This document shows, piece after piece, positions 13,481-44,568 of a stretch of DNA of 51,611 bases. The notes under the pieces are model-generated. The model worked only from the letters and a program-made list of their open reading frames with translations. It was not told the origin of the DNA and made no database searches. This stretch comes from Pirellula staleyi DSM 6068 (GTDB taxonomy: Bacteria > Planctomycetota > Planctomycetia > Pirellulales > Pirellulaceae), in the NCBI GenBank assembly GCA_945875845.1, contig CAMCMB010000050.1:1-51611 (forward strand), written 5' to 3'. A program made the position numbers and the translations under genes. Every line of letters starts with the position of its first letter. The stretch's first letter is position 1.

Positions 13481-13483
13481 CGA

Positions 13484-13637
13484 TGGTAACCCGACTCGTA
13501 ACGGCTTGTTGCTTTAGTGAAGTCGTTATTGGGTAAGGGCGGTAAGACGGACTTCCGAGTCCGTCAATGGGGAATTCGACGGACTCGGAAGTCCGTCGTA
13601 CCATTAAATCAACGAGCCGTTACGCGTCGGGTTGTCA
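13484..13637. repeat. MITE-like nested palindrome, copy 2
   Basis: Same element as 284-438. The central arms are GACGGACTTCCGAGTCCGTC (13546-13565) and GACGGACTCGGAAGTCCGTC (13578-13597): relative to copy 1 one base changed in each arm and pairing was kept. The outer arms TGGTAACCCG and CGGGTTGTCA are also conserved. Confidence 0.8.
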
Positions 13638-13795
13638 ACGCCAGTTGTGATTCACCTCGATGCTAACAATGCTCCGGAAAAACCCTGGGGCTATTGTTTC
13701 CTTTAGAATATCTCCCATCCTCCAATTCCAACGGAACTCACCGGTTTCCCGGATGAGCCAAACCATCGGTACCTACGATAAAGAAAATCTTGAAA

Positions 13796-16984: not shown

Positions 16985-16990
16985 GAGTCT

Positions 16991-17668: not shown

Positions 17669-18047
17669 GGGTTTTCGCTTTCTAAGTTAGCCTTCTTGCC
17701 TTGCTAAGCTGTGACTATCCGAGGTCAAAGCGGTATTTATAACTGAATTCCTACGAACGTATAGCTACGTAGGGGACGCTACCGACATTCACTAGGCGGC
17801 TGGCGTCCAATGGCCCTCACGATGGATTGTGTCTTTGTTGTAGCAGGGTGCGAGCCCTCCGGTTTCGCTGCATTGATTCCGGCACTCACCAGACGGCTTG
17901 CGCCGTTCCGCTAACAAAGCGAATGCGGTTAGGCTCGCGCCGCTGCGCTGTGAGGAAATAGAACGTGTGCCCAGTCGGGCGCAAAACTGGCTAAGATAAC
18001 ACCCCTGCATATCCGATCGATCCTCCCTGCTCTCCATGGAGAAGGCA
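17669..18047. other. Gene-free divergent spacer
   Basis: Lies between the leftward CBM9-like gene and the rightward sulfatase gene, so it should carry both promoters. No clear promoter or repeat was recognised. Confidence 0.5.
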
Positions 18048-19904
18048 ATGACTTTTCGAAACTTCTTGGCGAAGAGAATGATTCCAAACCCAATCCAACG
18101 CCTTCGCCTGTGCTTCTTTGCGCTGGCCGGTTTGGTCGCAAGTCCGCTTGGTGCCCCGCTCTGTGCAGAGCCGCCGCGTCCAAACGTCGTTATCCTATTG
18201 GCGGATGACGCGGGTTGGGGAGATTATGGCCATTCCGGTAACGTTCAAGTGAACACGCCGAACATCGACTCCATCGCTACGGGAGGCGTTTCGCTAGACC
18301 GTTTTTTCGTTTGCCCTGTTTGTTCACCGACACGAGCCGAGTTTTTGACGGGTCGGTATCATCCTCGCGGCGGTGTCCGAGGAGTTTCAACAGGACAAGA
18401 GCGCCTCAATCTCGACGAAAACACGATTGCGGATGCGTTTAAGGCTGCCGGCTATACTACTGGCGCTTTCGGAAAATGGCACAACGGCTCTCAGTGGCCT
18501 TACCACCCGATGGCTCGCGGATTCGATGAATACTTTGGGCACTCGTCTGGTCACTGGGGCGAGTACTTCAACGCGCCCCTGGAAGAAAATGGTCGTATGA
18601 TCCGAACCAAGGGTTACATCGTCGATGTCTGCACCGATCGCGCAATCAACTTCATCGATCGAAACAAAGACAAACCCTTCCTGTGCTATGTTCCATTCAC
18701 GACTCCCCACTCACCCTGGGCTGCTCCCGCTAAGGATTGGGCGGCGTTCAAGGATAAGGCCATTCACCAAACCGCCACGAACCCCAAGGAAGAAGTGCTC
18801 GACCAGACACGCTGCGCCCTCGCTATGCTTGAGAATCAAGATGCGAACGTCGGGCGAGTACTGAAAAAACTCGCGGAACACAACCTAACCGACAACACCC
18901 TCGTACTCTATTTTTCCGATAACGGACCCAATACGGCTCGATGGACAGGCGGGATGAAAGGCAAAAAGGGGACTACCAATGAAGGCGGGGTGCGTTCGGT
19001 ATGCTACATGCTCTGGCCAGGCAAATTACCAGCCGGTCATAGCGTTCCGCAAATCGCCGGCGCAATCGATTTGCTCCCAACCATCGCCAGCCTCGTAAAC
19101 ATCCCAAGAGTCGGTAACAAACCGCTCGACGGCAAAGATCTCTCGCCGCTATTGTTGCGGACACCGACCGCAAACGCCTGGCCGGACCGAATGATCTTTT
19201 CCAAGTGGGGGCTGAGTACGAGCGTTCGCACACAACGCTATCGACTCGATGACAAAGCAAAACTATTTGACATGCTCGAGGATCCTGGTCAAACCAAGCC
19301 TATCAATGAGCGCGAGCCGGCAATCGCAGCAAAACTCACCCAGGCGGTCGCGGATTGGCGAGCGGAGATGTTCCCAGCGGCCTCCAACGAAACTATATCG
19401 AAACGTTTGGGCCAAGAAGTCGACCCTCGTCCGATTCCAGCCGGATACCCAGTGTTTCCGATCACGATGTTGCCCGCTCGCGATGGAGAACCTCGCGGAG
19501 GCGTGAGGCGCAGTAGCTCAGCACCGAACTGTTCCTATTTCGTGAACTGGACAAGCTATGACGATAGTATGGTTTGGCTGCTCGATGTGAAGACAACCGG
19601 CCGCTACAATGTCAGCATAGACTACACCTGCCCAGCGTCCGATGTCGGCTCGTCGATCGAGCTTGCGTTTCGGCAATCAAAAATGAGCGGGAAAGTAACA
19701 CCGGCTTGGGATCCTCCGCTCTACTCCAATCAGGACACGCTTCCTCGGCCTCCGGGCGAAAGTCAAATGAAAGATTTCCATTCGCTCAACCTTGGCAGCA
19801 TGCGATTGGATGCCGGTCAAGGTGAACTCGTCCTGCGAGCGACAGATATCCCTGGCAAGTCGGTGATGGATCTGCGCCGCATCACCATTACGCTGTTAGA
19901 GTAA
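18048..19904 (+). CDS. Secreted sulfatase
   Basis: A 618-aa formylglycine-dependent sulfatase that removes sulfate esters from polysaccharides. The motif CSPTR (C92) is the site converted to formylglycine. D53 and D54 in LLADDAGWGD and the late DNGPNTARW are metal ligands. A signal peptide covers about residues 18-40. The C-terminal 140 residues (after about 480) form an extra beta-rich domain ending MDLRRITITLLE. The ATG at 18048 is preferred over 18036 because GGAGAAGG lies six bases ahead of it. It fits the neighbouring beta-helix and esterase genes as a polysaccharide-degrading set. Confidence 0.93.
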   Translation: MTFRNFLAKRMIPNPIQRLRLCFFALAGLVASPLGAPLCAEPPRPNVVILLADDAGWGDYGHSGNVQVNTPNIDSIATGGVSLDRFFVCPVCSPTRAEFLTGRYHPRGGVRGVSTGQERLNLDENTIADAFKAAGYTTGAFGKWHNGSQWPYHPMARGFDEYFGHSSGHWGEYFNAPLEENGRMIRTKGYIVDVCTDRAINFIDRNKDKPFLCYVPFTTPHSPWAAPAKDWAAFKDKAIHQTATNPKEEVLDQTRCALAMLENQDANVGRVLKKLAEHNLTDNTLVLYFSDNGPNTARWTGGMKGKKGTTNEGGVRSVCYMLWPGKLPAGHSVPQIAGAIDLLPTIASLVNIPRVGNKPLDGKDLSPLLLRTPTANAWPDRMIFSKWGLSTSVRTQRYRLDDKAKLFDMLEDPGQTKPINEREPAIAAKLTQAVADWRAEMFPAASNETISKRLGQEVDPRPIPAGYPVFPITMLPARDGEPRGGVRRSSSAPNCSYFVNWTSYDDSMVWLLDVKTTGRYNVSIDYTCPASDVGSSIELAFRQSKMSGKVTPAWDPPLYSNQDTLPRPPGESQMKDFHSLNLGSMRLDAGQGELVLRATDIPGKSVMDLRRITITLLE

Positions 19905-23354: not shown

Positions 23355-26300
23355 TCATTTCACACGAATGGGCACTTCACAAAAAGTGAGCGCGGCAATT
23401 CCATTTTTCCCAACCAGCAGCGTTTTCTGGCTCCAGCTTTTTTCCTTGAGATAAGTGACCGACTTCGCACCCGAGGGCTCTTTCAACGCAAGAGTGAGCA
23501 CATTCCCATTCAACGAACCCGATGCAACCTTGTCCTTTTCTCCGTCGAGATAAAACTGTCCAACCAGGGTATCCGCCCAAACGATAGGTTGGTCGAACTC
23601 GAGCGCGATCGCGTCCTTCGCTGTGCTGGTGAAATAGGCTTGCTGAAGATTGGGTGCTGTGATGGGTTCGATATTCTTTTTGTCGTAGTGATCGCGTTCG
23701 ATCAATGGCTGAATGAGACTAGCAAATTCAGCCCATCCGACGAGTGGGAAATGGCAGCCTCCAGGCGGCTTGACGCCTAACGTGGACATGACGTCCATGT
23801 TGGAGTACAGGCGTGGTAACGTCCTCTGCATCTCGCGCAACATGTCGCCATTTCCATTTCCCATGCTGCAAGAGTTAGGCCAGATTTGAAACAGATAGTA
23901 GTGCTGAATGTTTGGGAAATCTTGCTTCCAAGCTGCCGACATTTCGACAAAGTATTTTTGGTAGGTTTCCGAACCAAAACCGCCATCGGGACCATCTGCC
24001 CCCTGATCGTTTTCACCTTGATGCCAAAGGATGCCTCGGATACCGTTGGTCAAACGGGCTTGTTGGACGCGCCAGAGCATCCGACCATAGATCGTCGTGA
24101 GGTCCGTTGGGTCGGCTTCCTTTCGTTGATGTTGGTCGATGCGAGTTCCACCTACGGCACCATTGATGATAAAGATGGGCATTTTTTGGCTTTCGACCAG
24201 TCGCTTGGCTAGCTCCATTCCCCACCAGCCCAGTTCTGCCTTTTCCCCTTGCTGGGCTTTCCAAACCGGATTGCACCAAAGGTTCTCTGTGCTGTCTTTT
24301 GACTTGTCAACGGGACGGCCATAACTGCGAATCCACTCATTGGTTTCCGGTGGAGACTTTTCGCCTGTGTCTGTCGCCAACGCGTTGGATTGGCCTTGAA
24401 TGAGATAAGCGTCACCGCATACGAGGTTCTTGACGGTCCGAAGCACCGTTTCAACGTCGCCCGTCTTGGTCCCAAATTCGACCTTATACTTTATCAGTCC
24501 CGGCTTAAGTTTAACCGTGAATGCGTATTCTTTATCGGTCGTAAGCTTTCGGTTTTCGGACTTGAATGTCCAAGAGTCTGTTGCGAACAGTTTGTCGTCG
24601 GCGTACACCCTTAGGAACACGGTGTCAGCAGGTTTGTCCAACGTTCCGTTGTAATGAAGCGTTCCTTCGTTCTTGTCATCGCGGGCGTAAAACTGGTTAT
24701 CGACAGGCTTTTCCTCTTTTCCGGGCGACCATTGGACCCAGGGATCGGTCTTGGGCTCTGTGACCAGAATCTCGCTCGCTGCAGTCGTCGGTGAGCCGCG
24801 ATTATCGATCGCCAGGGTCACGGTAATCGGACCGGAGTACTGGGATCGTTTCAGGACCAGTCGGTCCGATTCAATTCGCTTGATTACAGCACCCCCGGAA
24901 ATGGACCAGACATAATGAAGTTCACCTGCGCCTCGGGACTGCATCGCGCTGAGATTGCTGATGCGAGGTACGACTTCGATGGAGTCTCGTCCATTCCATT
25001 TCGTCGGCGCATCAAGCGTGAAACGAGGCTCTGGAATTTCTTCCTTGACGGTCACCGCAATATCTGCGGTTTTGATTTCATTGGCATAAACTGCTTTGCA
25101 CTGAAGATCAAAGGATGCGTCGCCCACCACGCGGCCAGCGTCGAGAGTGTACGAATACTGGTCGACCGCCACGATCGAGTCCACACCGTCGCGTTTGAGA
25201 ATCCAATACAGCTTTTGCGCCCCATCGGCTTGAACGGATACCGTCTTGCTTTGGCCTTCCGGCAATGTGATCTTCGAATCGGAAACGGAAAACGTGCTTC
25301 CTTCTCTCACAAGCAATCCAACGAGGGTTTGCATGGGCTTCTGGTTTTCGTATTGCAGCTTGATCCACTCGGCGGAACGCGTCACATTTGAGACTCGAAC
25401 TTCGTCGATGTCGCCGATGAAGTCATAGTTGTTGTACCAACCGCCGATCCACAACCTTGCAGGATTTTGGATGTTCAAAGGAGACGAGGCCGTTTTTTTC
25501 TCGCCGTTCAGTTTACCGTTCACGTAAATTCGCGATTCGCCTTGGCGATACGTGTGAACGACATGGGCCCATTTCGACAGTGGAATGGTCTTGGTCGTTT
25601 CGATATCGGCTCCGGAGAAATAGCAGTCCATTCTCACATGAGAGGGACTGCGATAGTGCATGACCACTTTGCCTTGCGCCTGCTCGTTTCCCCATGCGAT
25701 GACTCTGCCGTTAGGCTTTTCCGCGCGGAACCAAGCTTCGGTAGTATGGTCATTAGCTCCTGTTGGGTAGTTGGAGATGCTCTCCCCGCCGACCAAACCC
25801 TGCCGTCCAGCGAAATGGCGTGCTTGGCCAATGATTCCGCGTACTACTTCCGTGCCAACATCTTTCGATTGGAGCGATCCGACCTCGTCGTCGACCGTAT
25901 CGCCGAGGTGCCACACGCTCAAGTAGCCGTTCGACTCATTGAAAACGGCTTTGCCCGATGACTCACTTTTGGCATTGGCATTTCCCCAATAGACTCGCAA
26001 CTCTTGGCGTGCATTCCCGCGAATCTTAGGCATACGGACCCACACGGTGGCCTTTCCTACCGCCGGATCCCATTCCTCGATTTGGTAGGGAACCGGCATG
26101 CCATCGCTGGTGGCGAAGCGCAAGTCCTCACCATGCGATTGTGCTTTCGCGAAATCAAAAGACTGCTTGCTCCATCGGATGAGCAACGGGAATCCCTCAA
26201 TCGATACGTCGGACGGCAGATCCGCTCCCTCGGATGTCGTTAAAAGGACTAGCGATCCCGATTGCTTCCAGTCGCTATATTGGGCGAATGCCGAACCGCT

Positions 26301-26361
26301 CGACGCATGGACCAACGCAGCGAAAAGAAGGAAGGCGAAGAAACGGTTAGGCTTGGTGGAC
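23355..26361 (-). CDS. Secreted DUF2341-LamG-SASA carbohydrate esterase
   Basis: About 1000 aa, exported. After the signal peptide (core FFAFLLFAALVHASSG) come a DUF2341-like domain (about 40-140), a LamG/concanavalin-like lectin domain (about 150-345, with WIGGWYNNYDFIGDIDEVRV), an Ig-like stretch, and a C-terminal SGNH hydrolase of the sialate O-acetylesterase/acetylxylan esterase (SASA) type with its serine motif YLIQGQSNAL and the block GILWHQGENDQ. It would remove acetyl groups from polysaccharides outside the cell. The start is uncertain: the frame opens at 26381, and MSTKPNRFF (near 26361) begins a cleaner signal peptide. A deleted partial copy of this gene lies at 44303-44568. Confidence 0.85.
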
Positions 26362-26417
26362 ATAGGGTTCCTGGTGGTCATTATTATTGACGTGGCTTTG
26401 GATGGGTCGAACCATTA

Positions 26418-26462: not shown

Positions 26463-26486
26463 CACATCCGCATATGTTTTTCAACC

Positions 26487-26604
26487 CAATTAGCCGTTGG
26501 GCGATAGCCCCGGTTTTCCAATTGCTCGACATTCGTCGAGAACCGGGGCTATCGCCCAATGGCTATCAGTTTGTTTCACTCGAAGAGTCATACCGATGTG
26601 CTTA
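26487..26604. repeat. GGCGATAGCC inverted repeat element, copy A
   Basis: About 118 bp: AATTAGCCGTTGGGCGATAG, CCCCGGTT, a nested hairpin CTCGACATTCGTCGAG, then AACCGGGGCTATCGCCC and a tail that contains CACTCGAAGAGTCATACCG. The copy at 38754-38871 inside the defence island matches along the full length including the tail. Confidence 0.85.
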
Positions 26605-26668
26605 GAATCGCTATAAGCCTATCCCACTTCAAAATACTAGCCCGAATCGAAAGCCGTGCTTCCACGAA

Positions 26669-27350: not shown

Positions 27351-28208
27351 TCAACCAATTGCAACATCAAAGCGTCCAAATCCAAATCGAGTCAGCTCAC
27401 CGACCCCTATGTGTCTACCCCACGCGAGGAGCTTTGCGACCTCAGGATGGAAGTCCGTTACTTCCACAAACCCATAAATTCCACCAAAAAACTTTCGGGA
27501 ACGAGCATCGCCGTAACTGGTTTCAATCCATTCAACTTTTTTGGAAGACACTTTACCGGGCAGTTCCATTACATCAGCAGTGTTACAGGGATCTAGTCCG
27601 AATCTTTTCAATCGTCTTTGAATTCCCTTCCACAGTTGCTCAAGGGAAAAATACTCTGCGTCCATAAAACGATGCCCACTCGTACATTTCGATAGTTCAC
27701 GACATAAACGAAGTGGAGTAACAAACCGAATCTGAACTCTACCAGCTGCAAAAATGAAACGCGAGTTTTCTTCGACCGTGCAAGCTTGAATCTCATGCCA
27801 ACGGTTTTGATGAGGAGCTGAATTTGAAATCAAAGAGGGGCGATCTACGACCTTGAAGTTTCCTCCTAAGACGGTTTTTGGTGCTCCGTGACTCCCTACT
27901 GCATCAAGCCCCTCGGATATCAAGCCAATTTCCCTCGCCGCGTCTATTGATGAGGCCCGCAACATCGTTACGCCGAACTGGAGAAATTCTCCTGGTTCAA
28001 GACGTCTCGGCGTGACTTCTGGTAACACAATCCAAAGGTCTTCCGGTAAAGCTGCGGGTGCCGATGTCGACCTACTCACCGCTTCTGCAAGTGTTGCATA
28101 AACGATCGGTCCAATGTATTTCGGAAACTCGATTGGAGAGCTTGCGACAAGGCAGAACTGGCAAGAGAAGAGTCGATGCCGAATTGGGTTTCTATGATAA
28201 TCGCACAA
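27351..28208 (-). CDS. cas6: Cas6 crRNA-processing endoribonuclease (stand-alone)
   Basis: About 285 aa. Cas6 enzymes bind the CRISPR repeat hairpin and cut precursor crRNA. The C terminus shows the family's glycine-rich loop and last strands: LLAWGRHIGVGELTRFGFG. Near the start, SPIEFPKYIGPIVYATLAEA matches the N-terminal RAMP strand-helix of Cas6. No upstream ATG is in frame; the start is probably TTG at 28208, with a G-rich ribosome-binding site just ahead. It is transcribed away from the rest of the locus. A second Cas6 domain is fused to RT-Cas1 at 41172. Confidence 0.85.
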   Translation of the reverse strand: MCDYHRNPIRHRLFSCQFCLVASSPIEFPKYIGPIVYATLAEAVSRSTSAPAALPEDLWIVLPEVTPRRLEPGEFLQFGVTMLRASSIDAAREIGLISEGLDAVGSHGAPKTVLGGNFKVVDRPSLISNSAPHQNRWHEIQACTVEENSRFIFAAGRVQIRFVTPLRLCRELSKCTSGHRFMDAEYFSLEQLWKGIQRRLKRFGLDPCNTADVMELPGKVSSKKVEWIETSYGDARSRKFFGGIYGFVEVTDFHPEVAKLLAWGRHIGVGELTRFGFGRFDVAIG

Positions 28209-29336: not shown

Positions 29337-30995
29337 ATGTTTCTGTGTTACGATATCAAGGGTATTCAGCGTTTTATCTTTAGCGTCCCACGCTTGAAAT
29401 GCATCGTAGGTGGAAGTGCGCTCATTGATGCTTTCGATTCAAAGGCCCACTTGTTGGGGGGACGCATATTCACAGGTGGCGGACGCGGCGCGTTCCAATG
29501 CGCAAATAGCCATCATGTAGAGAGTCTTGAAGACGAATTGCGTGCATGGGCTGGGGACGCAGGACTGGATATTCAGTTTGGCTGTGACGACGAGCTCGCA
29601 AAAGCAGCTAAAAATGCTGACCGTTTCTACCCTTATGCGCCATTGAATCTGGAGGGCGTCCCTTGCGAGATATCAGGTTATCTGCCCGCCAAATCCAAGG
29701 GAAAAGTAAACGAAAAGATCGCTCGACGAATGGACGAAGGAGAAAAGGACGCTTTCGGCAGCGGGATACTGAAGGAAAAGAAAATGGAAGACCGGCTGCC
29801 GGATCATTTGAAAGGAGTGCACATCGAGTTCTTCAAAAACGTCAGCCCGGAATCAGCATTGGATGAAGACGAATTCGATGGGCGATTCGATTGGCGAACG
29901 GATCAGTTGCGTGCAAATGCTGCCATAAACTCGATTGGTCGACGCAATCGTTGGGCCGTAATTGCAATGGATGGCAACGACATTGGTTCTCAGTTCGCTG
30001 CCTTTCAGGCTAAAGCAGGCAACAACCAAGAACAATTGGTGGAGTGGCTGACGAAGATGAGTGACTGCATGAAGCAGTGCACCAGGAACGCATTTATTGC
30101 GGCTACATTGCGAGTCTTAGACCAATGGGTCGAGGACGCGGATCTGAGTTTATGTTGGTACCCCAATCGAGATAACGAAAAGACAATTGTCTTGCCCATG
30201 CGGCCGCTGATTTTGGGAGGCGATGACGTAATCCTTCTTTGTCATTCGAGGTACGCATTTGAGTTCGTTCGAACCATGGCGGCTGAATTTGAACGCGAAA
30301 GCCTCACTGCTGCAAAAGACTCGAAACTGGATGAACTGTGGCCTGCGAGTGGCAATCGACTTACCATGAGCGCCGGCGTGCTCTTTACCAATCTGCATCT
30401 CCCTCTGCATTCTGCAATTCCCTACGCTGAGGCACTCCTGAAAAACGCAAAAGGAGTTTATCGCAAGAAAACCAGCGTAAGCTCGATCAGTACAGCCTCT
30501 TTGCCAAGTGCTCCCTCGCCAGCTGCTATCGATTTCGATGTCGTTACCGATTCGCTTCTCGACACTCCAGCGGAGCGTCGTCGACGAGAATTGGTCTTCA
30601 TCGACAATGAACTTGATTGCAAAGAGATAAGGCTCACGAAAAGGCCGTATCGGCTCGATGCAGCAAGCACAGACTCGACAAACCGGATGAATGATACCTG
30701 GGGTGATCTGAATAGCCTTGCAAACGAACTTTTTGAATTGCCGAAAAGCATTCGGTCTCAGTTACTACCCATGATGCGGCGCTCATGGAGCGAACGTGTC
30801 ACCTTTCTCGCATCGATCGCAAAGCGATATCCGGAAATCAAAAAATTGTTCATGGAAGAGCCCATGGAAAATGGAGAATGGGTAATCGGCGATGGGTGGT
30901 TTGATATTCCGGGCAAAAATAGACGAGAATCCAGCATTGCTGATGCTCTACTTTTGCTTGAGGAAGAAGATCGAACGCAGCAAGTTACCATCTAG
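29337..30995 (+). CDS. cas10: Cas10 (HD-less, GGDD-containing) large subunit
   Basis: 552 aa. Cas10 is the signature subunit of type III CRISPR effectors; its palm converts ATP to cyclic oligoadenylate when target RNA is bound. The protein opens directly with the first palm: YDIKGIQRFIF then VGGSALID, the classic Cas10 start of that domain. AMDGNDIGSQF at 210-220 is the palm-1 counterpart, and LGGDDVIL with G294-G295-D296-D297 is the cyclase motif, intact. A helical C terminus (about 450-552) follows. The N-terminal HD nuclease domain of standard Cas10 is missing, and no zinc-finger cysteines are evident. RBS GAGGG precedes the ATG. Confidence 0.9.
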   Translation: MFLCYDIKGIQRFIFSVPRLKCIVGGSALIDAFDSKAHLLGGRIFTGGGRGAFQCANSHHVESLEDELRAWAGDAGLDIQFGCDDELAKAAKNADRFYPYAPLNLEGVPCEISGYLPAKSKGKVNEKIARRMDEGEKDAFGSGILKEKKMEDRLPDHLKGVHIEFFKNVSPESALDEDEFDGRFDWRTDQLRANAAINSIGRRNRWAVIAMDGNDIGSQFAAFQAKAGNNQEQLVEWLTKMSDCMKQCTRNAFIAATLRVLDQWVEDADLSLCWYPNRDNEKTIVLPMRPLILGGDDVILLCHSRYAFEFVRTMAAEFERESLTAAKDSKLDELWPASGNRLTMSAGVLFTNLHLPLHSAIPYAEALLKNAKGVYRKKTSVSSISTASLPSAPSPAAIDFDVVTDSLLDTPAERRRRELVFIDNELDCKEIRLTKRPYRLDAASTDSTNRMNDTWGDLNSLANELFELPKSIRSQLLPMMRRSWSERVTFLASIAKRYPEIKKLFMEEPMENGEWVIGDGWFDIPGKNRRESSIADALLLLEEEDRTQQVTI

Positions 30996-31054
30996 TGCTT
31001 TCCTCTTTTCAGCAACGTATTGAAATACAACCTGAGTCATAAGGCAAAACGCGA

Positions 31055-33073
31055 ATGCGAGCAATCTCTTTTTCAGTGAAGCTGGTAAGCGATGCGGAAC
31101 CTGGAACCGGTTTTGGCGGAGAACTAGTCAACGACTTAATACCACGCGATGAAATCGGTCGTCCGGTCCTACCAGCTTCACACATCAAGGGGCTCATGCG
31201 GGCCGCGCTGGTAGAAATGTGTGAGGCCCGTGGATGGAGTCGCGAGCTTATCGTACGAGTATTCGGTAAACCCGAACACGTGGCGGTTGATGAGTACTCG
31301 GCATTTACCTTAACATCGGCTGCGGCGATGCAATACGATTGCCAACAGCAGTTCGTTGTTCGCACTGCGGTTGGAGAAGCGGGAATCGCATCGGTGAACT
31401 CCCTTAGAACCACTGAATGCGTATCGTCAGAAACAGAGTTTTCAGGATGCTTGTATATATCGTCCGAGGAAAATTCCGTGGAGGATCTGGCGTGCAGATT
31501 GTCTTTGTTGTCGATTCGAGCCGTAGGCGGTGGGCGGAACCGTGGTTCTGGTGCTTGTTTTGTTACTATCCAGAGTGAAACGCAAGGTCCAGGTACTTTG
31601 CTCCGTAAACTCGACCGGGAAATGCGAACATGGAAGCCGAGTCGCGATGCGGCCCCATCGAAGCCAATTTCCCGATTGGTTGGCAAGGCAACCGTATTGA
31701 AATTGGTGTTTCGCGCTTCGACTCCTATCTGCTGCCCCGAAATCCCGGATCGATCCAACGTCATTTCAACTGGCTTTACGATACCAGCAAGCGCAGTTCA
31801 GGGAGCGATGCTAACCTATATCAATCAACAGGACCCTGCACTGGCTACTGCGCTATTTGAACATTCGCAATTTCGTGCTTGGCCTTTACAGCCATGTGGG
31901 AAACCTAATCATACTGGCTCGGAACCGCAGCCGTGCTCCTCCATCCGCGTAAGCCTAACACATCAGGCATCCAAATACTCCATAGCGAAAGATTATGGAC
32001 CTGACGATTTTCATGAGCGAGCGTTAGTGGCAGATACGACAGACGACCGTCCACGTGGTGCGCCTCTCAAAGCATCCGACGGCGTCTTGTTAAGATATCC
32101 CGATGGATCGGTAAAGTTATGGCGGGCCAGTGACATGCCACATGTGATCACTTCGCATGGAGTGCACGAAGAAGCTTTTACCGAACGAAAAAGGAACCTC
32201 TTTACCGTAGACGCGATGGCGCCGATGGTTTGGCAAGGTTTGGTCGTTGTACCCGAAGACGCGATTCGAGACATCCAACGCATCCTTGGATCGCTCCCGC
32301 AAATCGCGATCGGCAAAAGTCGCACAGTTCGAGGACTTGGGACAATTTCTATTGACTCTGTTTTAGGTGTTCCTGAGGAGTGGAAAACCCCCGAACATCT
32401 TCCGACGCTTTTCGTTGTACAGTCTCCGATTCCAATCCCAGACACATCGCAATCAGTCGAAGAACAGCTTCGGTCAATGGCGGATAGTTGGGGAATTGGC
32501 GTCGAAGTAGAAAAGGTTTGGGCAAGTTCTGGAATTCTGTTTGGTTGGAATCGACTTCGAAATGGATTGCAGCAAGCGCAACGGGTCATTCTTCCCGGTT
32601 CGGTAATCGCTTTCAAGAAGAGAATCGAGGACCAAGTCGTCTTTGATTTCCTAACGTCCGCCAAATTTATGCAGGAGAATCGGCAGCGCGGATATGGCGC
32701 GATAAGTGTGCATCCAGGGAAAGCGACCTCGCTCTTAGAGTTCAAATCCGAGCCGCTATCTATCCAAGCTGCACCGAACCAATACGCCGACGCGATCAAG
32801 CTCGTATTGCAAATCGCTCGAATGCAGGTGCTACCAAGCGTGAGCCAAATTCGTTCGATCAAAGATCGATTGGATCTCAGTGGCGTTAACGTAGCTTTGG
32901 ACTATCTTCAAAACCAAACCACGGGACGGACGGCTCGTATTTGGGCCGACTGGGACCATTGCAAAACAAAGATACGCGATCTCATCTCAAAGTTTCCAGT
33001 CGAGAGCTCATCCAAAGCTTTGGATGTTCTTGCCGATTTGGTGCTCGCTGCCAGGGGACAAATGGATTCATGA
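31055..33073 (+). CDS. Cas7-Cas5(Csx10)-Cas11-like fusion protein
   Basis: 672 aa with three parts. Residues 1-175 form a Cas7 RAMP: a beta-hairpin (VNDLIPRDEIGRPVLP) then ASHIKGLMRAAL and the late glycine loop GGGRNRGSGACFV. Residues about 212-560 resemble Csx10, the Cas5 of type III-D: FTIPASAVQGAML, RNLFTVDAM, IGKSRTVRGLGTISI and RQRGYGAISV. Residues about 575-672 are almost all alpha-helical (ADAIKLVLQIARMQ, KTKIRDLISKF) as expected for Cas11. This order matches Cas7-Cas5-Cas11 of the Synechocystis III-Dv complex. The gene overlaps the next by ATGA, implying coupled translation. Confidence 0.78.
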   Translation: MRAISFSVKLVSDAEPGTGFGGELVNDLIPRDEIGRPVLPASHIKGLMRAALVEMCEARGWSRELIVRVFGKPEHVAVDEYSAFTLTSAAAMQYDCQQQFVVRTAVGEAGIASVNSLRTTECVSSETEFSGCLYISSEENSVEDLACRLSLLSIRAVGGGRNRGSGACFVTIQSETQGPGTLLRKLDREMRTWKPSRDAAPSKPISRLVGKATVLKLVFRASTPICCPEIPDRSNVISTGFTIPASAVQGAMLTYINQQDPALATALFEHSQFRAWPLQPCGKPNHTGSEPQPCSSIRVSLTHQASKYSIAKDYGPDDFHERALVADTTDDRPRGAPLKASDGVLLRYPDGSVKLWRASDMPHVITSHGVHEEAFTERKRNLFTVDAMAPMVWQGLVVVPEDAIRDIQRILGSLPQIAIGKSRTVRGLGTISIDSVLGVPEEWKTPEHLPTLFVVQSPIPIPDTSQSVEEQLRSMADSWGIGVEVEKVWASSGILFGWNRLRNGLQQAQRVILPGSVIAFKKRIEDQVVFDFLTSAKFMQENRQRGYGAISVHPGKATSLLEFKSEPLSIQAAPNQYADAIKLVLQIARMQVLPSVSQIRSIKDRLDLSGVNVALDYLQNQTTGRTARIWADWDHCKTKIRDLISKFPVESSSKALDVLADLVLAARGQMDS

Positions 33074-34530
33074 ACCAAACGATTCACTTACTTGTATTGC
33101 CCTTACTATTCCCAACGGGACTCGCTGCCGGGGCTGGCGGAGAATACAACCGACTTCGTTTAGCCCGCAATGGCCGGGGCCAGCCAGTACTTCGCGGAAC
33201 TTCATTGGCAGGCATTCTTCGACATGCTTATTGTCGAGAAATGGGGCTAACCTCTAGCGACAAGTCTGTTGCGAAGTTTTTTGGCGAAGCGCTTGATGGC
33301 GAAGCACATGGGAAGCCTAGTGCCTTTCGAATTAACGATTGTATACTCGAAACGGGTGGCAGGTCCTCTGTCGAGCGGACGCATCATTTGAGAAACCGTC
33401 ATTCGAAAACCGTCGCCGAGGGGGGGCTGTTTTCTATGGAAAGCTGCCCACCCGGAACGACTACGACGGCATACCTTTGGTTGACCGAAAATGCTGAGGG
33501 CGAAGCGAGCAAAGAATTCTTGTCGAGAATCGTTGCGATCATCAATAGTGGTATTTGCCTGGGTGGCCAATCAGCGCGTGGGATTGGAATCATGCAACTT
33601 AGCAGCGATGCGCAATTGAGGACGTTTAACTTAAGCGATATTGAGGAGCATGTCGCGATGCTCGATATCAATCATCAGCTTCGATCTTCGCCGAACTTTA
33701 CCATCCATGGAGCTATCTCCTTAACGGGTTTAGTAGCAAATCGGCCTGTATTGCAAATCGAGTTGCAGCTTAGAGTCCCACGAGGACAAGATATCTTAGT
33801 TGGCGATGGCGCTGGCCTTGAACGGGACATTGAGCCGCAGCGTGTAACTGGAGCCAACGGGAAAAAATATTGGCGAATTCCTGGAAGCACTTTTCGCGGT
33901 CTATTCCGAGCCTGGATCACAAAACTCGCAGCGAAAGCGGGAAAGGTGGTGGCCGACTCCTATGATCGTCGGATGAAATTCTCGTCCAGCAGCAGCCCTC
34001 GAACAGACGAGCTAAATGGCGAAAACATGGGTCGTTGTTTCCTGCCGGAAGGTCAACGTAGTCTGGTAGCCCCAGTCATCGAGTGCCCCATCGCGAGTTT
34101 GTTCGGTAGTTTGTATCAGTCCAGTCGAATTCACTTTTCGGATGCATTGGTCGACGCGGACGCGAGTGGCTCTAAGTATTCGGAGCAAACTCGAATGCAC
34201 GTCGCAGTCGATCGAATCACCGGAGGAGCAGCCGAGAGTTTGCTCTTTAACAACTCGGTTTTAACCTGCTCCGAGGTTGACTGCAGCGAACCATTCCTTG
34301 TCAAGATACGAGTCGATCGACCAACACTGGAAGAGATTGATTGGATCAAGAAGACCATCGTTGCACTCGATATTGGAATTCTGCGAGTCGGCTCTAGCAA
34401 GAGCAGTGGTCGTTTGGAGCTTCATCGATCCCCGACCGCCACAGGGAGCTTCGCTGACGTTATTTCTTCGATTCAGCCACATCCAAATTTTATGGCAAGT
34501 CACTCGAGAAGTGCTGGAGTCCCATCATGA
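33070..34530 (+). CDS. Double Cas7 protein (Cas7-2x)
   Basis: 486 aa holding two Cas7 RAMP units. Unit 1 (about 1-190): LRGTSLAGILRHAY and glycine loop LGGQSARGIG (164-173). Unit 2 (about 213-455): IPGSTFRGLFRAW (270-282), IHFSDAL (354-360), VDRITGGA and GSSKSSGRLEL (441-451). Cas7 units line the crRNA and cut target RNA with aspartates in the loops; D residues lie in unit 2 (ILVGDGAGLERD), while unit 1 has EYNRLRL at the equivalent place, so unit 1 may not cut. The ATG at 33070 overlaps the upstream stop. In III-Dv the counterpart is Cas7-2x. Confidence 0.78.
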   Translation: MNQTIHLLVLPLLFPTGLAAGAGGEYNRLRLARNGRGQPVLRGTSLAGILRHAYCREMGLTSSDKSVAKFFGEALDGEAHGKPSAFRINDCILETGGRSSVERTHHLRNRHSKTVAEGGLFSMESCPPGTTTTAYLWLTENAEGEASKEFLSRIVAIINSGICLGGQSARGIGIMQLSSDAQLRTFNLSDIEEHVAMLDINHQLRSSPNFTIHGAISLTGLVANRPVLQIELQLRVPRGQDILVGDGAGLERDIEPQRVTGANGKKYWRIPGSTFRGLFRAWITKLAAKAGKVVADSYDRRMKFSSSSSPRTDELNGENMGRCFLPEGQRSLVAPVIECPIASLFGSLYQSSRIHFSDALVDADASGSKYSEQTRMHVAVDRITGGAAESLLFNNSVLTCSEVDCSEPFLVKIRVDRPTLEEIDWIKKTIVALDIGILRVGSSKSSGRLELHRSPTATGSFADVISSIQPHPNFMASHSRSAGVPS

Positions 34531-36905
34531 AGTCCGAGAAAGGTAAACTCGTCAAGCAGGGCAAAATCTTTTTGGTCAATTTGCCCACCAAAAAGGGAAC
34601 CACCAATTTCCAAATCTCTGAACATGCCAAACGCTTTAGGGATGCCGATGCATCGGATGGCTTGGAGGTTGACGTTGTAAAGGACGATGCAAATCGAATA
34701 ACCAAGGTGACGATACCGGGCAAGGCGGAATCAACCCCGGTCGTGACCCGTCCCCCTGAAAAGAAGCACTCCACTCATCCAGCGAACCATCAAGGCGGTT
34801 CATCGCAATCGGTCCAACAACGGGCACGCCGAGAACTCGTCAAAGCGCCTGCAAAGTCCCTTGGAATGGAATTTCATAATCCATACACTTTTATTCCATT
34901 TCCAAAACATGGACCGGAGCGTCATAGCCCGACACTTCATAGCGTTGACGAAGCGTCAGGTAGCCAGCGGTATACTGGCGTGATGCGGCTTGCTGTGACA
35001 ACCGAGAGTCCTCTGTTGACATCCGATCCCGAAGCAGTTGAGAATCCAAAAACCAAGCATAAAACGTATCGTGCTTTAACAATCGGGCGGGACGTAATCG
35101 TCCCGGCGACCGGGATTCGCGGAGCGTTACGTTCTCTTTTGACAATTTTGACTGGCGGTACGTTGGGTTATTTGAACACCAGCGAAATGCTGTGTCAGGG
35201 CCGCGACCTCAATCTGGGGCCAGAAGGAGCCAAAAGTCCTCCAGGTACTCCAAAAGACTGCTTCCTAGCCGAAGTACTAACGCCAGGTAATGCTAGGCGA
35301 GCCGGTTCGATTCAAATTGGCGTCAAACGGTTTGTGGCTTTAGATGACTTGGTACTCAAGTTTCGAAATCTCGACGAGTACCGCTCTCCAAGTTCACCAA
35401 CGTTGTGGGTTGAAATGGATTCCATCGATCAAGTGAAACGCGTTTTTGAATCGCCCACTGAGCCAACAGGAAACGTATGGAGGTTGAGACTCTCGGGACG
35501 TCCCGTCAATCCCAAGGGGAAACGAGAAGCACTGTATCGCCCAACAGACTTGATTCTCGAATTGCCGCCATCCTTTTGGGGAAAATATTCCGAGAGAAAC
35601 AAGCATGGTGATCGAACGGATCTTAGGAAGGGAGACCTCGTTTGGTTAATGCCCAAGAACCCAAATGCAACCGCGATTCGTGTTGTTGAGGATATCGATT
35701 CCTTGCAGTGGGCACGTTGGGGCAGACGCGGACAAAATCTCCAAGAGCTGATCCAAAAACATCATGCGCATGTGATGCCAGACAGCCTAAAGGACGACGG
35801 CAAAGTCGACACGGTCACCGACATGTTCGGCCAAGTTGCGGTCAAGCGAGAGTTGCACGCCCCATCCTTCGCTGGCAGAGTATTGCCAGAAAATTTAGTC
35901 TTTCCAGACGCAGCCAGTCGAGTCCATCGCCTAACTTTGGCACCGCTCGCTCCTCCGCATCCTGGCTGTGTCGCATTCTACCGAGACAATGCAAATGCGG
36001 ATGGCATTTCTATGTCGGACGGCTTGCGTGGTTACAAGGTCTACCGTACGACCGAAGAGTCGGGGGACGATGCACCTTGGAAATTTTCTACGCAAGGCGT
36101 CTACGGTGATCGAGGGGAACTCAAGGATGCGAACGGCGCAGTTAACAAGACATGCGATCTCGTGCCTCAATCCGAACGTGGATGGCTAAACATTACCTTT
36201 ACGGCGTTATCCGAATTGGAGTTAGCTTTGCTGATTCAAGCCTGTTCGGTCCCGTGGCGATTAGGAGGCGGAAAACCTTTAGGACTTGGCAAGTGTTCCG
36301 TCGAGATTTGCGATCTGCTAGACGAAACTGGCGAGTTGCTTCAGGTGGCGGGATGGGAGATTGAACGCGGAGCGGACGCAAAACTGCATTTACTTGGTTG
36401 GCAACGTTCTGTTCAACCCATTACGGGACGTGTAGCCATGTGGGTTTCTAGTCAGTCTCCGGTAAAGCGTTTGCGGTATCCGCGAGCCGTCGACGAGACA
36501 CGCCACAAGAAATCGCGAGGTGGTCACGTTTGGTTTCAACGCCACGCCCAGCCGCGCGACGTTGTTGACAAAGAAGGAAATCGACAACCAGGTCTCAAAC
36601 CTATGTACGTTGATGGTGAGTTGATGTCTCAGGTTCAAAGCCTGGGTGGGGTACTTGATCCGCAAGAGCCGATGATTGCAGGTCAACCTCTGCCTAATTT
36701 TAACGTATCGGATCCTCAGTCCGATCGTTTGTTCGGATACGATGGATTTGGTGTCGAAGTACAAACTCGTGAAAAACCAAAGCGACGCGTGTACATCAAA
36801 TACGAACCGTTTGATCCAACGAAGCATGCAAGAGAAACTGATAAGAGCTCAGGCAATGATGGCAAAGACAAAGCGTTTCGAGAGAAAAACAAATGGCGAG
36901 AGTAG
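34527..36905 (+). CDS. Large Cas7-family RAMP with insertion (TIGR03986-like)
   Basis: 792 aa. Residues 1-70 form a small separate basic beta-domain (KGKLVKQGKIFLVNLP) linked by a low-complexity tract. FHNPYTFIPFP (116-126) is the hallmark of the TIGR03986 RAMP family. IVPATGIRGALRSLL (191-205) is the RAMP helix. Residues about 210-430 look like an insertion, followed by MFGQVAVKRE, FAGRVLPENLVF and the glycine loop LGGGKPLGLGKCSVEI (579-594). A basic, unfamiliar tail of about 190 residues ends the protein. The arrangement matches Cas7-insertion of III-Dv. The start overlaps the preceding stop by ATGA. Confidence 0.75.
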   Translation: MKSEKGKLVKQGKIFLVNLPTKKGTTNFQISEHAKRFRDADASDGLEVDVVKDDANRITKVTIPGKAESTPVVTRPPEKKHSTHPANHQGGSSQSVQQRARRELVKAPAKSLGMEFHNPYTFIPFPKHGPERHSPTLHSVDEASGSQRYTGVMRLAVTTESPLLTSDPEAVENPKTKHKTYRALTIGRDVIVPATGIRGALRSLLTILTGGTLGYLNTSEMLCQGRDLNLGPEGAKSPPGTPKDCFLAEVLTPGNARRAGSIQIGVKRFVALDDLVLKFRNLDEYRSPSSPTLWVEMDSIDQVKRVFESPTEPTGNVWRLRLSGRPVNPKGKREALYRPTDLILELPPSFWGKYSERNKHGDRTDLRKGDLVWLMPKNPNATAIRVVEDIDSLQWARWGRRGQNLQELIQKHHAHVMPDSLKDDGKVDTVTDMFGQVAVKRELHAPSFAGRVLPENLVFPDAASRVHRLTLAPLAPPHPGCVAFYRDNANADGISMSDGLRGYKVYRTTEESGDDAPWKFSTQGVYGDRGELKDANGAVNKTCDLVPQSERGWLNITFTALSELELALLIQACSVPWRLGGGKPLGLGKCSVEICDLLDETGELLQVAGWEIERGADAKLHLLGWQRSVQPITGRVAMWVSSQSPVKRLRYPRAVDETRHKKSRGGHVWFQRHAQPRDVVDKEGNRQPGLKPMYVDGELMSQVQSLGGVLDPQEPMIAGQPLPNFNVSDPQSDRLFGYDGFGVEVQTREKPKRRVYIKYEPFDPTKHARETDKSSGNDGKDKAFREKNKWRE

Positions 36906-38375: not shown

Positions 38376-39188
38376 AAGCTTGTTGGTCGATCGGATCCGC
38401 ATTTTTCGTATCGTTCTCTTTTTGCGATTCATCGTGCAATCAAAACGCCTTGGTGAGTTTCGGATGCGGCCTAGATAACTGTCGCGAGTCAGCAGCCCTA
38501 CGAATGAGGGCGCGTTGCGATCTGTTCGAGGCTAGGGTTGGAAACACGGCAGTCCCGTCATTGCGGGGCGGTGCGAAAGTCCTGGCCGTTTGCCGCGTGA
38601 AAAGTAAGGCTGGGGGCTTTCGTAAAAATGGACCATGTCAGTGGAAACAGAAAATTCGGTCGCAACTGGTTGTGGCACTGCACTTTATGTCATATCATCA
38701 GGAAAGCCATCCCCCGAAAGGCGGATGGACCAATGAGGACCAGCTGGTCATACCAATTAGCCGTTGGGCGATAGCCCCGGTTTTCCAATTGCTCGACATT
38801 CGTCGAGAACCGGGGCTATCGCCCTTCGGCTATCAGTTTGTGTCACTCGAAGACTCATACCGATGTCCTTAGTCGCAAAGATAGACCAATGAGGACCAGC
38901 TGCTCCGATTTGAAATGCGATTTCAAATCTCAGATCGCAGATCGGTCATTTTGGATTTGCCGCCCCTGGGCTTGAACCGCTTGAACCCACACGATCTACA
39001 TCTAGAGTGTGTCGTCTCTTTGTTGTTCAACCACCCTTTGCTAACCTTTAAGCCCTTAGTTTCAATCGAGCTTGTTCCTCTGCGACCTCCACGTCTCGGC
39101 GTTTCCATTCTCGGTCGTGCAGCTATCTCGACTCGGAGAGCCGTACCACACTCACACAGAGATCTCGTATGGCAGAGCCACGCTACAA
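38376..39188. other. Gene-free gap inside the island
   Basis: About 810 bp without a credible protein. It holds the GGCGATAGCC element (38754-38871) and the 19-bp direct repeat GACCAATGAGGACCAGCTG at 38728-38746 and 38884-38902. Open frames at 38450-38872 and 38915-39337 cross the repeat or lack any family likeness. Confidence 0.6.
38754..38871. repeat. GGCGATAGCC inverted repeat element, copy B
   Basis: Nearly identical to 26487-26604 along its whole length, including nested hairpin CTCGACATTCGTCGAG and the tail CACTCGAAGACTCATACCG. It is flanked by the 19-bp direct repeat GACCAATGAGGACCAGCTG (38728-38746, 38884-38902), which could be a target duplication. Confidence 0.8.
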
Positions 39189-40844
39189 TTAGTGTGGCTT
39201 GGCGGAGGCTAGCCCAATTGCCAAATGGATCGCGATCGCCAGCAGGATCCAGACCAGTGCCCATCGTCGCTTGCCACCGACAAGCTGCTTGCCGATCGAA
39301 TCGCACTTTGCGATCGCCTTCGAAAGGAGCCAATTGAACCCACCGGACTCAGTTTGCTTCTTGGGCCAAAGCCCCAAGGCGCTCATCATCACGACCAAAG
39401 TTGTCAGGGCGACGAGAATCAGCGTTGTTCCCGGATACAGCAGTGGCCAAGCGCTTCGTTCATGCGTCACAAACCCATCGCCAATGACATGCGCCATCTC
39501 AACCGAATAGACGCTCACGATGAAGACCTCGATCCATTCCACTTTTTCATGCAACCGAACTTGCTCCTCAAAACTTTCCGACTGGCTTTCGTTTTGGGCA
39601 ATCAACTCCTGTGTGCTTAATTGCCGGTCGATGTCCGTTAGGATCGCGTCCATGCCTGCCGCCGCTTCGTCGATTTCAAAAGCTTGTCGGCATTCACGAA
39701 ACCAACGCGATGTATTGTCCTCGTCCGAAATCTGACGGATCTGACCCCGCAATGCAAAGTGCACCATGGCCTTTCTAAGTGGTGCCAAACGATGGTAATA
39801 TCCCAAAGGATCGACAACGGCATTTCCATCCGAACCGCTCGGTTCTTGGCTGAGCTCGATCGACTCAAGTTTTAACGCTTGAATCGCAAGTCGCTGTTGC
39901 ATTGCGATCAAATACGGCAAGAACCACTTGTCAATCGCTTGGTCTAGACGTTGCAAATCGAAGCGATGTGATTGGTTGGATCCGGGCGTCGCTTGGTCAG
40001 CGACAAGCGCTGCGGCACCCAGGCTGCCTACCCCCATCCACATCTTGCGATTGATGAGAATCGATTGGTTGGCCGTAATCGCGTCTTGGACAGTCCCGCA
40101 ATGGTCAGTCGGCCAAATCATTTGCAACCCAATCAAGTTTGTGAGGATCGCGTCTCGAGTGGACGAAACACCAAAATCGACGCTCCCATCAAGTCGAACG
40201 GCAGTGTAGAGGCTCATCGATCTTTGGGTAGCGGTAATTCCGAATTCCGATTCCCGATGCCCACCTGGCGTTGCGCCCTCCAATAGACCTTCACAGAGTG
40301 TCGGCAAGTTCTGAACGGTTGGACTGAAGTCAATGATGTTCGAAGCGAGTGGGAAGACCCGTTCTGGATTTCTTGACAGCCACTCTTTGCCGTAATGCAA
40401 TCGACTGTTAAAGGCGCGAACTTGTTCGATGGTTGTGAGCGATGTCTTCGAATGAAGAGCAATCGAGAGCACGCCGATCCCGTAGGCGCTCAAGAAAAGT
40501 TCGCAACCCCTCCTGGCTGCGAACGGCCTCAACGTGTCCTCTGATTCCGGAGTTGTGGCGATGAGATGCCGATCCAACTGTGGGTTGAGCTTCAAGTAAG
40601 CACCGTTCTCGAACGAACCGAGCGATGGTTCGTAAAGCGGCAGATAGGAGAATACATTGTCGAGATACTCCGAGCGCAACGAAGTTAGATGCCACGCCTC
40701 GGATTGCATGAGGCGCACACCCTTTAGGTGTTCGACGAACGATCGAATTTTCGTGTAGTCAAACAAGAATGGGAGCAAGAATCGTGTTTCGAATTGTTTG
40801 ACTGGGAACTGCATGGGAATGGGTTGAGTGTGGGTGTGAGTCAC
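39189..40844 (-). CDS. Large protein with C-terminal membrane segments, effector candidate
   Basis: 551 aa, with a long soluble part and membrane segments at the end. Helical segments run about 300-430 (IDKWFLPYLIAMQQRLA, DIDRQLSTQELIAQ). A hydrophobic helix KVEWIEVFIVSVYSVEM (434-450) is followed by TM segments at about 467-493 and 527-547. The layout of a soluble domain, helical stalk and two end TMs recalls CorA-like and RMND1-like membrane proteins, but no GMN motif is present. CorA-like effectors are known in some type III loci. It is divergent from the HD gene by 21 bp, and M11 is an alternative start. Not assignable beyond that. Confidence 0.5.
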   Translation of the reverse strand: MTHTHTQPIPMQFPVKQFETRFLLPFLFDYTKIRSFVEHLKGVRLMQSEAWHLTSLRSEYLDNVFSYLPLYEPSLGSFENGAYLKLNPQLDRHLIATTPESEDTLRPFAARRGCELFLSAYGIGVLSIALHSKTSLTTIEQVRAFNSRLHYGKEWLSRNPERVFPLASNIIDFSPTVQNLPTLCEGLLEGATPGGHRESEFGITATQRSMSLYTAVRLDGSVDFGVSSTRDAILTNLIGLQMIWPTDHCGTVQDAITANQSILINRKMWMGVGSLGAAALVADQATPGSNQSHRFDLQRLDQAIDKWFLPYLIAMQQRLAIQALKLESIELSQEPSGSDGNAVVDPLGYYHRLAPLRKAMVHFALRGQIRQISDEDNTSRWFRECRQAFEIDEAAAGMDAILTDIDRQLSTQELIAQNESQSESFEEQVRLHEKVEWIEVFIVSVYSVEMAHVIGDGFVTHERSAWPLLYPGTTLILVALTTLVVMMSALGLWPKKQTESGGFNWLLSKAIAKCDSIGKQLVGGKRRWALVWILLAIAIHLAIGLASAKPH

Positions 40845-40865
40845 GGCACAGAGTGCTGTGTTACA

Positions 40866-41159
40866 ATGGGGCTTCCTAATTTATCCATCGTAGAAGAAAT
40901 CGCCATCGTGTTGAATGAAAACTCCGCTTCTGGGCCCACCTTGGTAGCTTGGTCACAGGACATAACGAGGGCGTTTGAATTGGGTGTTGAGCTGCATCGG
41001 GAGCAGGTGCGCAAGGGGACGAACATACCGTACGTCTCGCACTTGATGGCGGTGTGTGCGATTGTAATGGAATATGGCGGTGACCGGGACGCTGTGATTG
41101 CTGCCCTTTTGCATGACGCGGCCGAGGACCAAGGGGGGATGAGACCAGTTCCGAGATAA
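40866..41159 (+). CDS. Truncated RelA/SpoT-like HD phosphohydrolase
   Basis: 97 aa. KGTNIPYVSHLMAV then YGGDRDAVIAALLHDAAEDQGG is the first half of the HD fold of (p)ppGpp hydrolase-like proteins, with the HD pair in LLHDAAED. It then breaks off at a run of G and ends GMRPVPR, where intact family members continue for about 80 residues. The ATG at 40866 is the likely start. It lies 12 bp ahead of the Cas6-RT-Cas1 gene on the same strand. It might be decayed, or a true minimal form; losing the later metal-binding residues would make it inactive. Confidence 0.6.
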   Translation: MGLPNLSIVEEIAIVLNENSASGPTLVAWSQDITRAFELGVELHREQVRKGTNIPYVSHLMAVCAIVMEYGGDRDAVIAALLHDAAEDQGGMRPVPR

Positions 41160-44068: not shown

Positions 44069-44302
44069 TCAACGCCCCTGTCGCTTCAAACTCAGCAATG
44101 CCCCGAGCGCGACCACGGAAAAAGCGAGTGAACTGGCCAAGCCGATCTTCAGCCCCGCAAAATCGCTCACGAATCCTACTATCCATGGTCCAAACGCCTC
44201 GCCCAGTCCCCCAAACGCAAAGAGGATTCCCAGGATAGCGCCGGTCTTTGCCACATGCAGTTTTATCACTGCGGCCGTAACCGTTGGAAATACAACGCAT
44301 TG
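44069..44302 (-). pseudogene. MFS transporter remnant (C-terminal end)
   Basis: A fragment of about 77 codons reads VFPTVTAAVIKL, ILGILFAFGGLGEAFGPW, VGFVSDFAGLKIG and a last hydrophobic helix ending LKRQGR, stop. This matches the final two helices of a major facilitator. No start or upstream part exists: at 44303 it is replaced by sequence from the SASA esterase gene. Confidence 0.7.
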
Positions 44303-44568
44303 GAGACTCGAACTTCGTCGATGTCGCCGATGAAGTCATAGTTGTTGTACCAACCGCCGATCCACAACCTTGCAGGATTTTGGATGTTCAAAGGAGACGA
44401 GGCCGTTTTTTTCTCGCCATTCAGTTTACCGTTCACGAAAATTCGCGATTCGCCTTGGCGATACGTATGAACGACATGAGCAATGGAAATCCCTCAATCG
44501 ACACGTCAGCCGGTAGATCCGCTCCCTCGGATGTCGTTAAAAGGACTAGCGATCCCGATTGCTTCCAG
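44303..44568 (-). pseudogene. Deleted partial copy of the SASA esterase gene
   Basis: 44303-44478 is nearly identical to about 25391-25565 (LamG region of the esterase) and 44479-44568 to about 26182-26271 (DUF2341 region), in the same orientation. The 600-odd bases between them are missing. A few substitutions separate the copies, so the event is not very recent. Confidence 0.85.

Follow-up and report, generated by a model that had tools for sequence, protein, structure and literature searches.

Background

The type III-Dv complex of Synechocystis PCC 6803 (PDB 8s9t/u/v/x; PMC11026444) combines Cas10 with three fusion proteins, Cas7-Cas5-Cas11, Cas7-2x and Cas7-insertion, which are encoded in this order. 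According to that article, its Cas10 has a GGDD motif and no working HD domain, target RNA is cut at D26 of Cas7-Cas5-Cas11 and at D33 and D246 of Cas7-2x, assembly is reported to need Csx19, and Cas10 is proposed to return to its inactive state once the bound RNA has been cleaved. In the related type III-D2 (PMC8730458, PMC12669027) three fused Cas7 domains form one protein, Cas7x3, and Cas10 and Cas6 are likewise present. Here we describe a locus on contig CAMCMB010000050.1 of Pirellula staleyi DSM 6068 (G000:C50:1-51611; the whole stretch of 51,611 nucleotides is called the window in the following), which belongs to a genome of 7.0 Mb. The system it encodes is a type III-D variant with the layout of III-Dv, without Csx19 and without the set of three slicing aspartates, and it lies outside the III-Dv group, in a distinct branch that is fairly widespread. 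Judging from its sequence, we consider it rather probable that this system acts as an RNA sensor, in which four proteins made of fused parts have kept signalling while slicing is reduced.

Results

Core operon

Four intact and adjacent genes (29337-36905; Table 1) follow one another as in the Synechocystis III-Dv operon, with the exception of Csx19. With Cas10, a Csx10-type Cas5 and Cas7 proteins, the locus encodes a type III-D effector. A preliminary description of this DNA had read Cas7-Cas5-Cas11, Cas7-2x and Cas7-insertion fusions from the sequence alone and had likened them to III-Dv; profile and structure comparisons agree on the domain order of all three, and the likeness holds for both operon order and fusion layout. 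In the predicted structure of the 672-residue fusion all three parts (Cas7, Cas5 and Cas11) are supported, and the final 107 residues find their best match, when modelled in isolation, in a Cas11 subunit from a type III-D complex; a Cas11 match of the last 100 residues had been proposed as a check. Identity to the Synechocystis counterpart is ~14% in the structure alignment. The Cas5 part is assigned by PADLOC Cas5_IIId and by structure, and the NCBIfam Csx10 model gave no match to the fusion at 0.1. Cas7-2x matches its III-Dv equivalent in a profile-profile comparison (E 7e-32), and residues 114-593 of Cas7-insertion align to Synechocystis residues 112-676 in a profile alignment. Cas10 begins straight at the palm: an N-terminal HD domain was not seen and the HD dipeptide occurs nowhere in the protein, so that the window resembles Synechocystis in having the GGDD motif and no working HD domain.

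The absence of a recognisable Csx19, likewise part of the preliminary description, extends to the whole genome, in which TIGR03984 found no match; the same model scores above its cut-off in Synechocystis and in genome G167, and weakly in G374. Among 18 rows of genomes from the clade described below (covering part of the genomes of its 22 loci; G260 and G401 are apparently the same genome), the sole match, in G403, is weak and under the cut-off. It sits in a different III-D locus, and its DNA shares no tested 40-mer with L018. Since Csx19 is reported as a requirement in III-Dv, the clade must assemble differently.

Related loci and phylogeny

A scan of genome contigs revealed 22 related loci, mainly from planctomycetes, with additional ones from Fibrobacter-like, Victivallales and Verrucomicrobia bins, which together with the window give a clade set of 23 rows. 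Unfused ordinary loci were not seen among these close relatives: the Cas7-Cas5-Cas11 fusion is nearly full-length in 19 of the 22, and in the other three (L017, L021 and L024) the edge of a contig or stretch truncates its beginning. All four parts, with Cas7-2x and Cas7-insertion either fused or split, occur in 17/22 loci, and the five loci with one part missing (L012, L017, L019, L021, L024) each end at a contig or stretch edge on that side. At the protein level, 7998 candidates were scored and at least 259 relatives recovered, of which the best 120 were used; named sources among these 120 include Desulfobacter, Entotheonella and Polyangiales. A fusion 96% identical to that of the window is present in a metagenome cluster (12 sequences on one contig).

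Among 392 genomes sampled from the phylum, a match occurs in 24; it is strong in four (the window's own G000, G260, G269 and the end-truncated G060) and partial and distant in 20; G260, G269 and G060 apparently represent the same contigs as L013, L022 and L024. None of the eight genomes listed from the same family has a match. Because the system is sporadic and missing from these eight genomes, its distribution suggests horizontal transfer.

A tree was built from 55 rows of Cas7-2x and equivalent proteins. All 23 rows of the clade fall into a single group (support 100/100), and apart from it lie the III-Dv rows (22; 100/98), the III-D2-like rows (three, with a weak support of 92/24) and the only Cas7-11 rows included (two). 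We refrain from drawing sister relations between these groups, because several end branches are long and the deep joins are not resolved. The III-Dv membership proposed in the preliminary description therefore stands as to fusion layout and gene order, but the label is too narrow for a clade that is separate, lacks Csx19 and has remodelled active sites. Neither is the system III-D2, in which the Cas7 domains that are split in the window are one protein. The Cas7x3 of L072 matches the solved chain 9wxh_D (5.8e-26); we infer that the III-D2-like loci L070-L072 and 9wxh are III-D2, and these loci keep Asp at sites 1 and 2 as defined below. A fused protein from the clade itself (L005) had no PDB match at 1e-3.

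Slicing sites

We refer to the positions of Synechocystis D26, D33 and D246 as sites 1, 2 and 3. The window has Asn, Arg and Asp there, so that one of three catalytic aspartates is left where III-Dv has all three; a separate profile-profile alignment gave the same registers for the latter two, Arg falling at site 2 and Asp at site 3. The substitutions are widespread in the clade. At site 1, the best 120 of at least 259 clade proteins have Asn in 88, Asp in 25, His in two, Ala and Gln in one each and a gap in three, as compared to Asp in all 116 of the best 120 Synechocystis relatives that possess a residue at this position (four gaps). Site 2 is without Asp in all 23 clade rows, which instead have Glu (seven rows), Leu or Thr (five each), Val or Arg (two each) and Ala or Gln (one each), and the preceding Asn is invariant (23/23); the best 120 III-Dv relatives have Asp 115, Asn 1 and gap 4. 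At site 3 the clade rows are divided among Glu (9), Asp (8), Gln (4), Pro (1) and Thr (1), as opposed to Asp 116, Asn 3 and Glu 1 in a III-Dv set that, here as at the other sites, consists of the best 120 matches of one query and is more closely knit than the clade set. Nine other III-D loci, which are far more divergent and include a III-Dv relative with Csx19 (L082), nonetheless all have Asp at sites 1 and 2; at site 3, where their alignment is doubtful, they show Asp in seven and Glu and Arg in one each. The His that is conserved in III-Dv beside sites 1 and 2 is retained in just 1/117 clade proteins at site 1 and 2/23 at site 2.

By contrast with this slicing-site loss, the cyclase motif GGDD is present in 20/20 distinct Cas10 proteins of the clade (from the window and 19 loci, L001 being excluded as a copy of the window's own locus). 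Target-RNA slicing is thus probably reduced in the clade, and in the window down to one canonical site. The replacement of slicing aspartates relative to III-Dv is the new element of the present analysis, with site assignments that derive from sequence alignments.

Alternative interpretations

Several observations weigh against a sensor with reduced slicing. An acid (Asp or Glu) occupies site 3 in 17/23 rows and Glu occupies site 2 in 7/23, and Asp persists at site 1 in 25/117 clade proteins, among them the early-branching L009 and L015. The Asp of an RGQD motif of Cas7-2x, 12 residues upstream of site 3, is invariant (23/23) and could have taken over catalysis. Placement of site 3 is itself uncertain, since 8/23 rows have a deletion beside it and its reading in L009 and L015 depends on the alignment. 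Members of the Cas7-11 family cut RNA, yet in the same alignment both Cas7-11 rows have Ser at site 2; we take this for a misalignment of a divergent row. Finally, an array search that covered the window and parts of contigs C12 and C49 detected no CRISPR array on the contig of the window, and no cas2 lies beside the gene for a Cas6-reverse transcriptase (RT)-Cas1 fusion, the sole Cas2 match of the genome being on C12.

The RGQD aspartate and the acids at site 3 also favour a fully slicing, III-Dv-like complex in which relocated catalytic acids, Glu at site 2 and variable acids beside site 1 among them, would cut RNA at two or three places, as does an Asp directly after the site-1 Asn in 44/117 clade proteins. 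We regard such a complex as possible but unlikely: near sites 1 and 2 no acid is conserved throughout the clade, site 2 of the window is Arg, and the nine other III-D loci all retain the ordinary Asp at both sites. A decaying locus, whose slicing residues drift without selection, would agree with the finding of no array on the contig and no cas2 beside the RT-Cas1 gene, with a truncated HD gene and with repeated flanks; it is improbable in view of the intact core reading frames, the GGDD motif in all 20 clade Cas10 proteins compared, and a loss of slicing aspartates that is common to loci of several phyla, with invariant neighbouring residues. The near-identical metagenomic fusion adds little on this point.

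The preliminary description had also seen in this locus a branch in the origin of Cas7-11 (type III-E), that is, an intermediate between multi-subunit type III and the single protein. Cas7-11 has its parts in the order Cas7, Cas11, Cas7, Cas7, Cas7-insertion. The window shares this order, though as four polypeptides that include Cas10 and Cas5, as opposed to one polypeptide without Cas10 (the part orders of Cas7-11 and III-Dv are compared in PMC11026444). Its Cas7-2x and Cas7-insertion weakly match Cas7-11 chains and the Cas7-11 family model, and scores with the type III-E model NF041225 are far below its 700-bit cut-off. In a profile comparison with one Cas7-11 (L080), made with profiles of unequal depth, the Synechocystis proteins are closer than those of the clade, both for Cas7-2x (E 1e-8 versus 2e-6) and for Cas7-insertion (8e-17 versus 4e-6). 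The fusion of Cas7-2x to Cas7-insertion, reminiscent of III-D2, is found in 4/22 loci, namely L005, L011 (with a frame break), L018 and L023 (a short form), and these occupy three positions within the clade tree (L005; L011 with L018; L023). L005 is fused and L006 split, although their Cas7-2x parts are 87% identical. With fused members in three places, whether the two are fused says little about descent. With neither a sister relation in the tree (long branches, two Cas7-11 rows) nor support from the profile comparison, a place for the clade on the line to Cas7-11 is most improbable, even if neither analysis excludes every version of such ancestry.

Signalling and effector genes

Downstream of the core operon lies a gene for a putative membrane effector, similar to Csx23 but differing from it in that a single hydrophobic stretch, at the N terminus, was recognised. 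By alignment and by their 15-/16-residue spacing, its Arg78, Arg93 and Phe94 correspond to R95, R110 and F111, the residues of Vibrio Csx23 (8qjk; PMC11014256) that bind cyclic tetra-adenylate (cA4), and the binding residues are therefore retained. Csx23 was found in only 4/1113 loci of one survey (PMC11229360). The next two genes resemble the halves of Csx3-AAA: the product of the first scores 21.3 bits with Pfam (cut-off 21) and 21.6 with NCBIfam (cut-off 55.4), and its PADLOC match has a value of 1.4e-15 (Table 1). Crn3 is described as a ring nuclease that cleaves cA4 and at times carries a fused AAA domain, the function of which is unknown (PMC12409355); the window has putative counterparts of both halves, but as separate genes.

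Similar genes accompany other loci of the clade. We compared 20 of 152 listed open reading frames (ORFs) from 15 clade loci with PADLOC, and CARF/SAVED effector matches were found beside the operon in nine of these (L004, L006, L008, L009, L010, L011, L015, L018 and L020); the match in L010 and one of the two in L004 are carried mainly by the TIR part. L007 has a Csx3-AAA match and L024 a weak CARF match, and the tested neighbours in L003, L014, L022 and L023 matched Cas6 alone.

A further candidate membrane effector, judged by its hydrophobic profile, is a protein of 551 residues that has two hydrophobic stretches close to the C terminus. Neither NCBIfam and PADLOC (at 0.1) nor Pfam (at 10) assigned it to a family, and of the 392 genomes sampled from the phylum two encode it, that of the window and G337. 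In G337 its homologue (L071 2379-4352) has the same layout of hydrophobic stretches and is located directly upstream of cas10 in a fused III-D operon. No match was found at the other clade loci examined, and a second sample of 347 genomes, queried with the G337 homologue, returned G337 alone. Two co-occurrences are a small number, yet both are at fused III-D operons.

Table 1. Position of the CRISPR-associated genes, protein parts and catalytic sites in the window
Feature	Position	Strand	Evidence or remark
Stand-alone Cas6, 285 aa (amino acids)	27351..28208	-	PF10040 1.2e-6; PADLOC Cas6 8e-14
cas10, 552 aa	29337..30995	+	PADLOC Cas10 1.5e-53; 8s9t_C 3.5e-17
GGDD, Cas10 cyclase site, residues 294-297	30216..30227	+	
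Cas7-Cas5-Cas11 fusion, 672 aa	31055..33073	+	
Fusion, Cas7 part, residues 1-180	31055..31594	+	
Site 1, Asn26 of fusion	31130..31132	+	Synechocystis Asp26
Fusion, Cas5 (Csx10-like) part, residues 212-556	31688..32722	+	
Fusion, Cas11 part, residues 566-672	32750..33070	+	six helices
Cas7-2x, two Cas7 domains, 486 aa from ATG at 33070	33070..34530	+	8s9t_D 5e-15; start at the ATG of the ATGA overlap, longer ORF option from TTG 32941
Site 2, Arg28 of Cas7-2x, after Asn27	33148..33153 (Asn27-Arg28)	+	Synechocystis Asp33
Asp241 of RGQD motif, Cas7-2x	33790..33792	+	Val in Synechocystis
Site 3, Asp253 of Cas7-2x, kept	33826..33828	+	Synechocystis Asp246
Cas7-insertion, TIGR03986-like, 792 aa	34527..36905	+	8s9t_E 1e-11; TIGR03986 115 bits (below the model's 161-bit cut-off)
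Csx23-like putative membrane effector, 159 aa	36927..37406	+	8qjk_A 3.5e-5 with alignment; PADLOC Csx23 8e-6
Crn3/Csx3-like putative ring nuclease, 102 aa	37403..37711	+	PADLOC Csx3-AAA positions 7-99 of 286, 1.4e-15; ATGA overlap with Csx23-like gene
AAA part of Csx3-AAA as own gene, 210 aa	37743..38375	+	PADLOC Csx3-AAA positions 109-284 of 286, 1.2e-44
551-aa protein, two hydrophobic stretches near C terminus	39189..40844	-	candidate membrane effector
Cas6-RT-Cas1 fusion, 931 aa	41172..43967	+	Pfam PF10040, PF00078, PF01867

Adaptation genes, flanks and variation among loci

The Cas6-RT-Cas1 fusion, whose RT has the YADD motif, and a stand-alone Cas6 lie on either side of the operon and its effector genes. 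Large arrays with different repeats are located on C12 and C49 (L093, L094 and L097), near other Cas1 genes. For an array of the present system, Rfam gave no match, and the repeat core of L010 does not occur in the window's genome. Just upstream of Cas6-RT-Cas1, a short and apparently truncated ORF (40728-41159) matches an HD_4 domain over the initial third of the domain only. Two segments of the gene at 23355-26381 are repeated on the far side of the CRISPR region (25385-25568 with 44298-44481, 97%; 26179-26271 with 44476-44568, 94%), as if a partial duplication with an internal deletion flanked an island. In addition, a 125-nucleotide repeat (26481-26605 and 38748-38872; 94% identical), with inverted arms recognisable by eye, is probably a small repetitive hairpin element.

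Some loci of the clade show further peculiarities. The Cas7-insertion parts of L005 (12068-15763) and L006 (11185-14838) are 37% alike, next to 87% for Cas7-2x, as if by recombination. In L023 (6346-9096) the Cas7-insertion match is limited to residues 27-371 of a fused protein of ~916 residues, the later part of which may be missing. L020 has a tandem pair of Cas7-insertion genes (13428-15800 and 15679-18126) in one operon. A gene resembling type IIG restriction-methylases directly follows cas7-2x in L019 (9042-11708) and L021 (2956-5703); in L021 it lies within the operon, between cas7-2x and the Cas7-insertion gene.

Discussion

By analogy with III-Dv, the four proteins of the proposed RNA sensor would assemble once around a CRISPR RNA cut by Cas6, the 3' seed end being occupied by Cas7-insertion and the 5' handle end by Cas5 and Cas10. 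Binding of foreign RNA would then switch on the cyclase of Cas10, in which the GGDD motif is observed, and yield cA4. If homology is a guide, this signal would be sensed by the Csx23-like protein, which would disturb the membrane, and be broken down by the Csx3/Crn3-like protein. Since target cleavage is proposed to inactivate Cas10 in III-Dv, shut-off in a complex with reduced cleavage would rely on ring nucleases. A stronger version, which we put forward tentatively and do not favour over more modest ones, is that multi-site slicing has been abandoned altogether for an RNA-triggered alarm with Csx19-free assembly, in which Cas10 would signal to membrane and CARF/SAVED effectors, ring nucleases would provide the shut-off and the 551-residue protein would be an extra effector.

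We found no description of the clade or of its active-site loss in open-access full text, a search outside which the original definitions of III-D2 and III-Dv lay. The clade shows that the fusion layout of III-Dv need not be accompanied by Csx19, and the recurrent fusion of Cas7 parts within it cautions against treating fused loci as a ladder to Cas7-11. In the III-Dv work cited above, Cas10 signalling is seen as ending when the target RNA is cleaved and released. A natural branch in which the cyclase motif is intact and the slicing sites are degraded would make this coupling of cleavage and signalling testable without engineered mutants, and it could be of use for detecting RNA, an application that calls for a long-lived signal.

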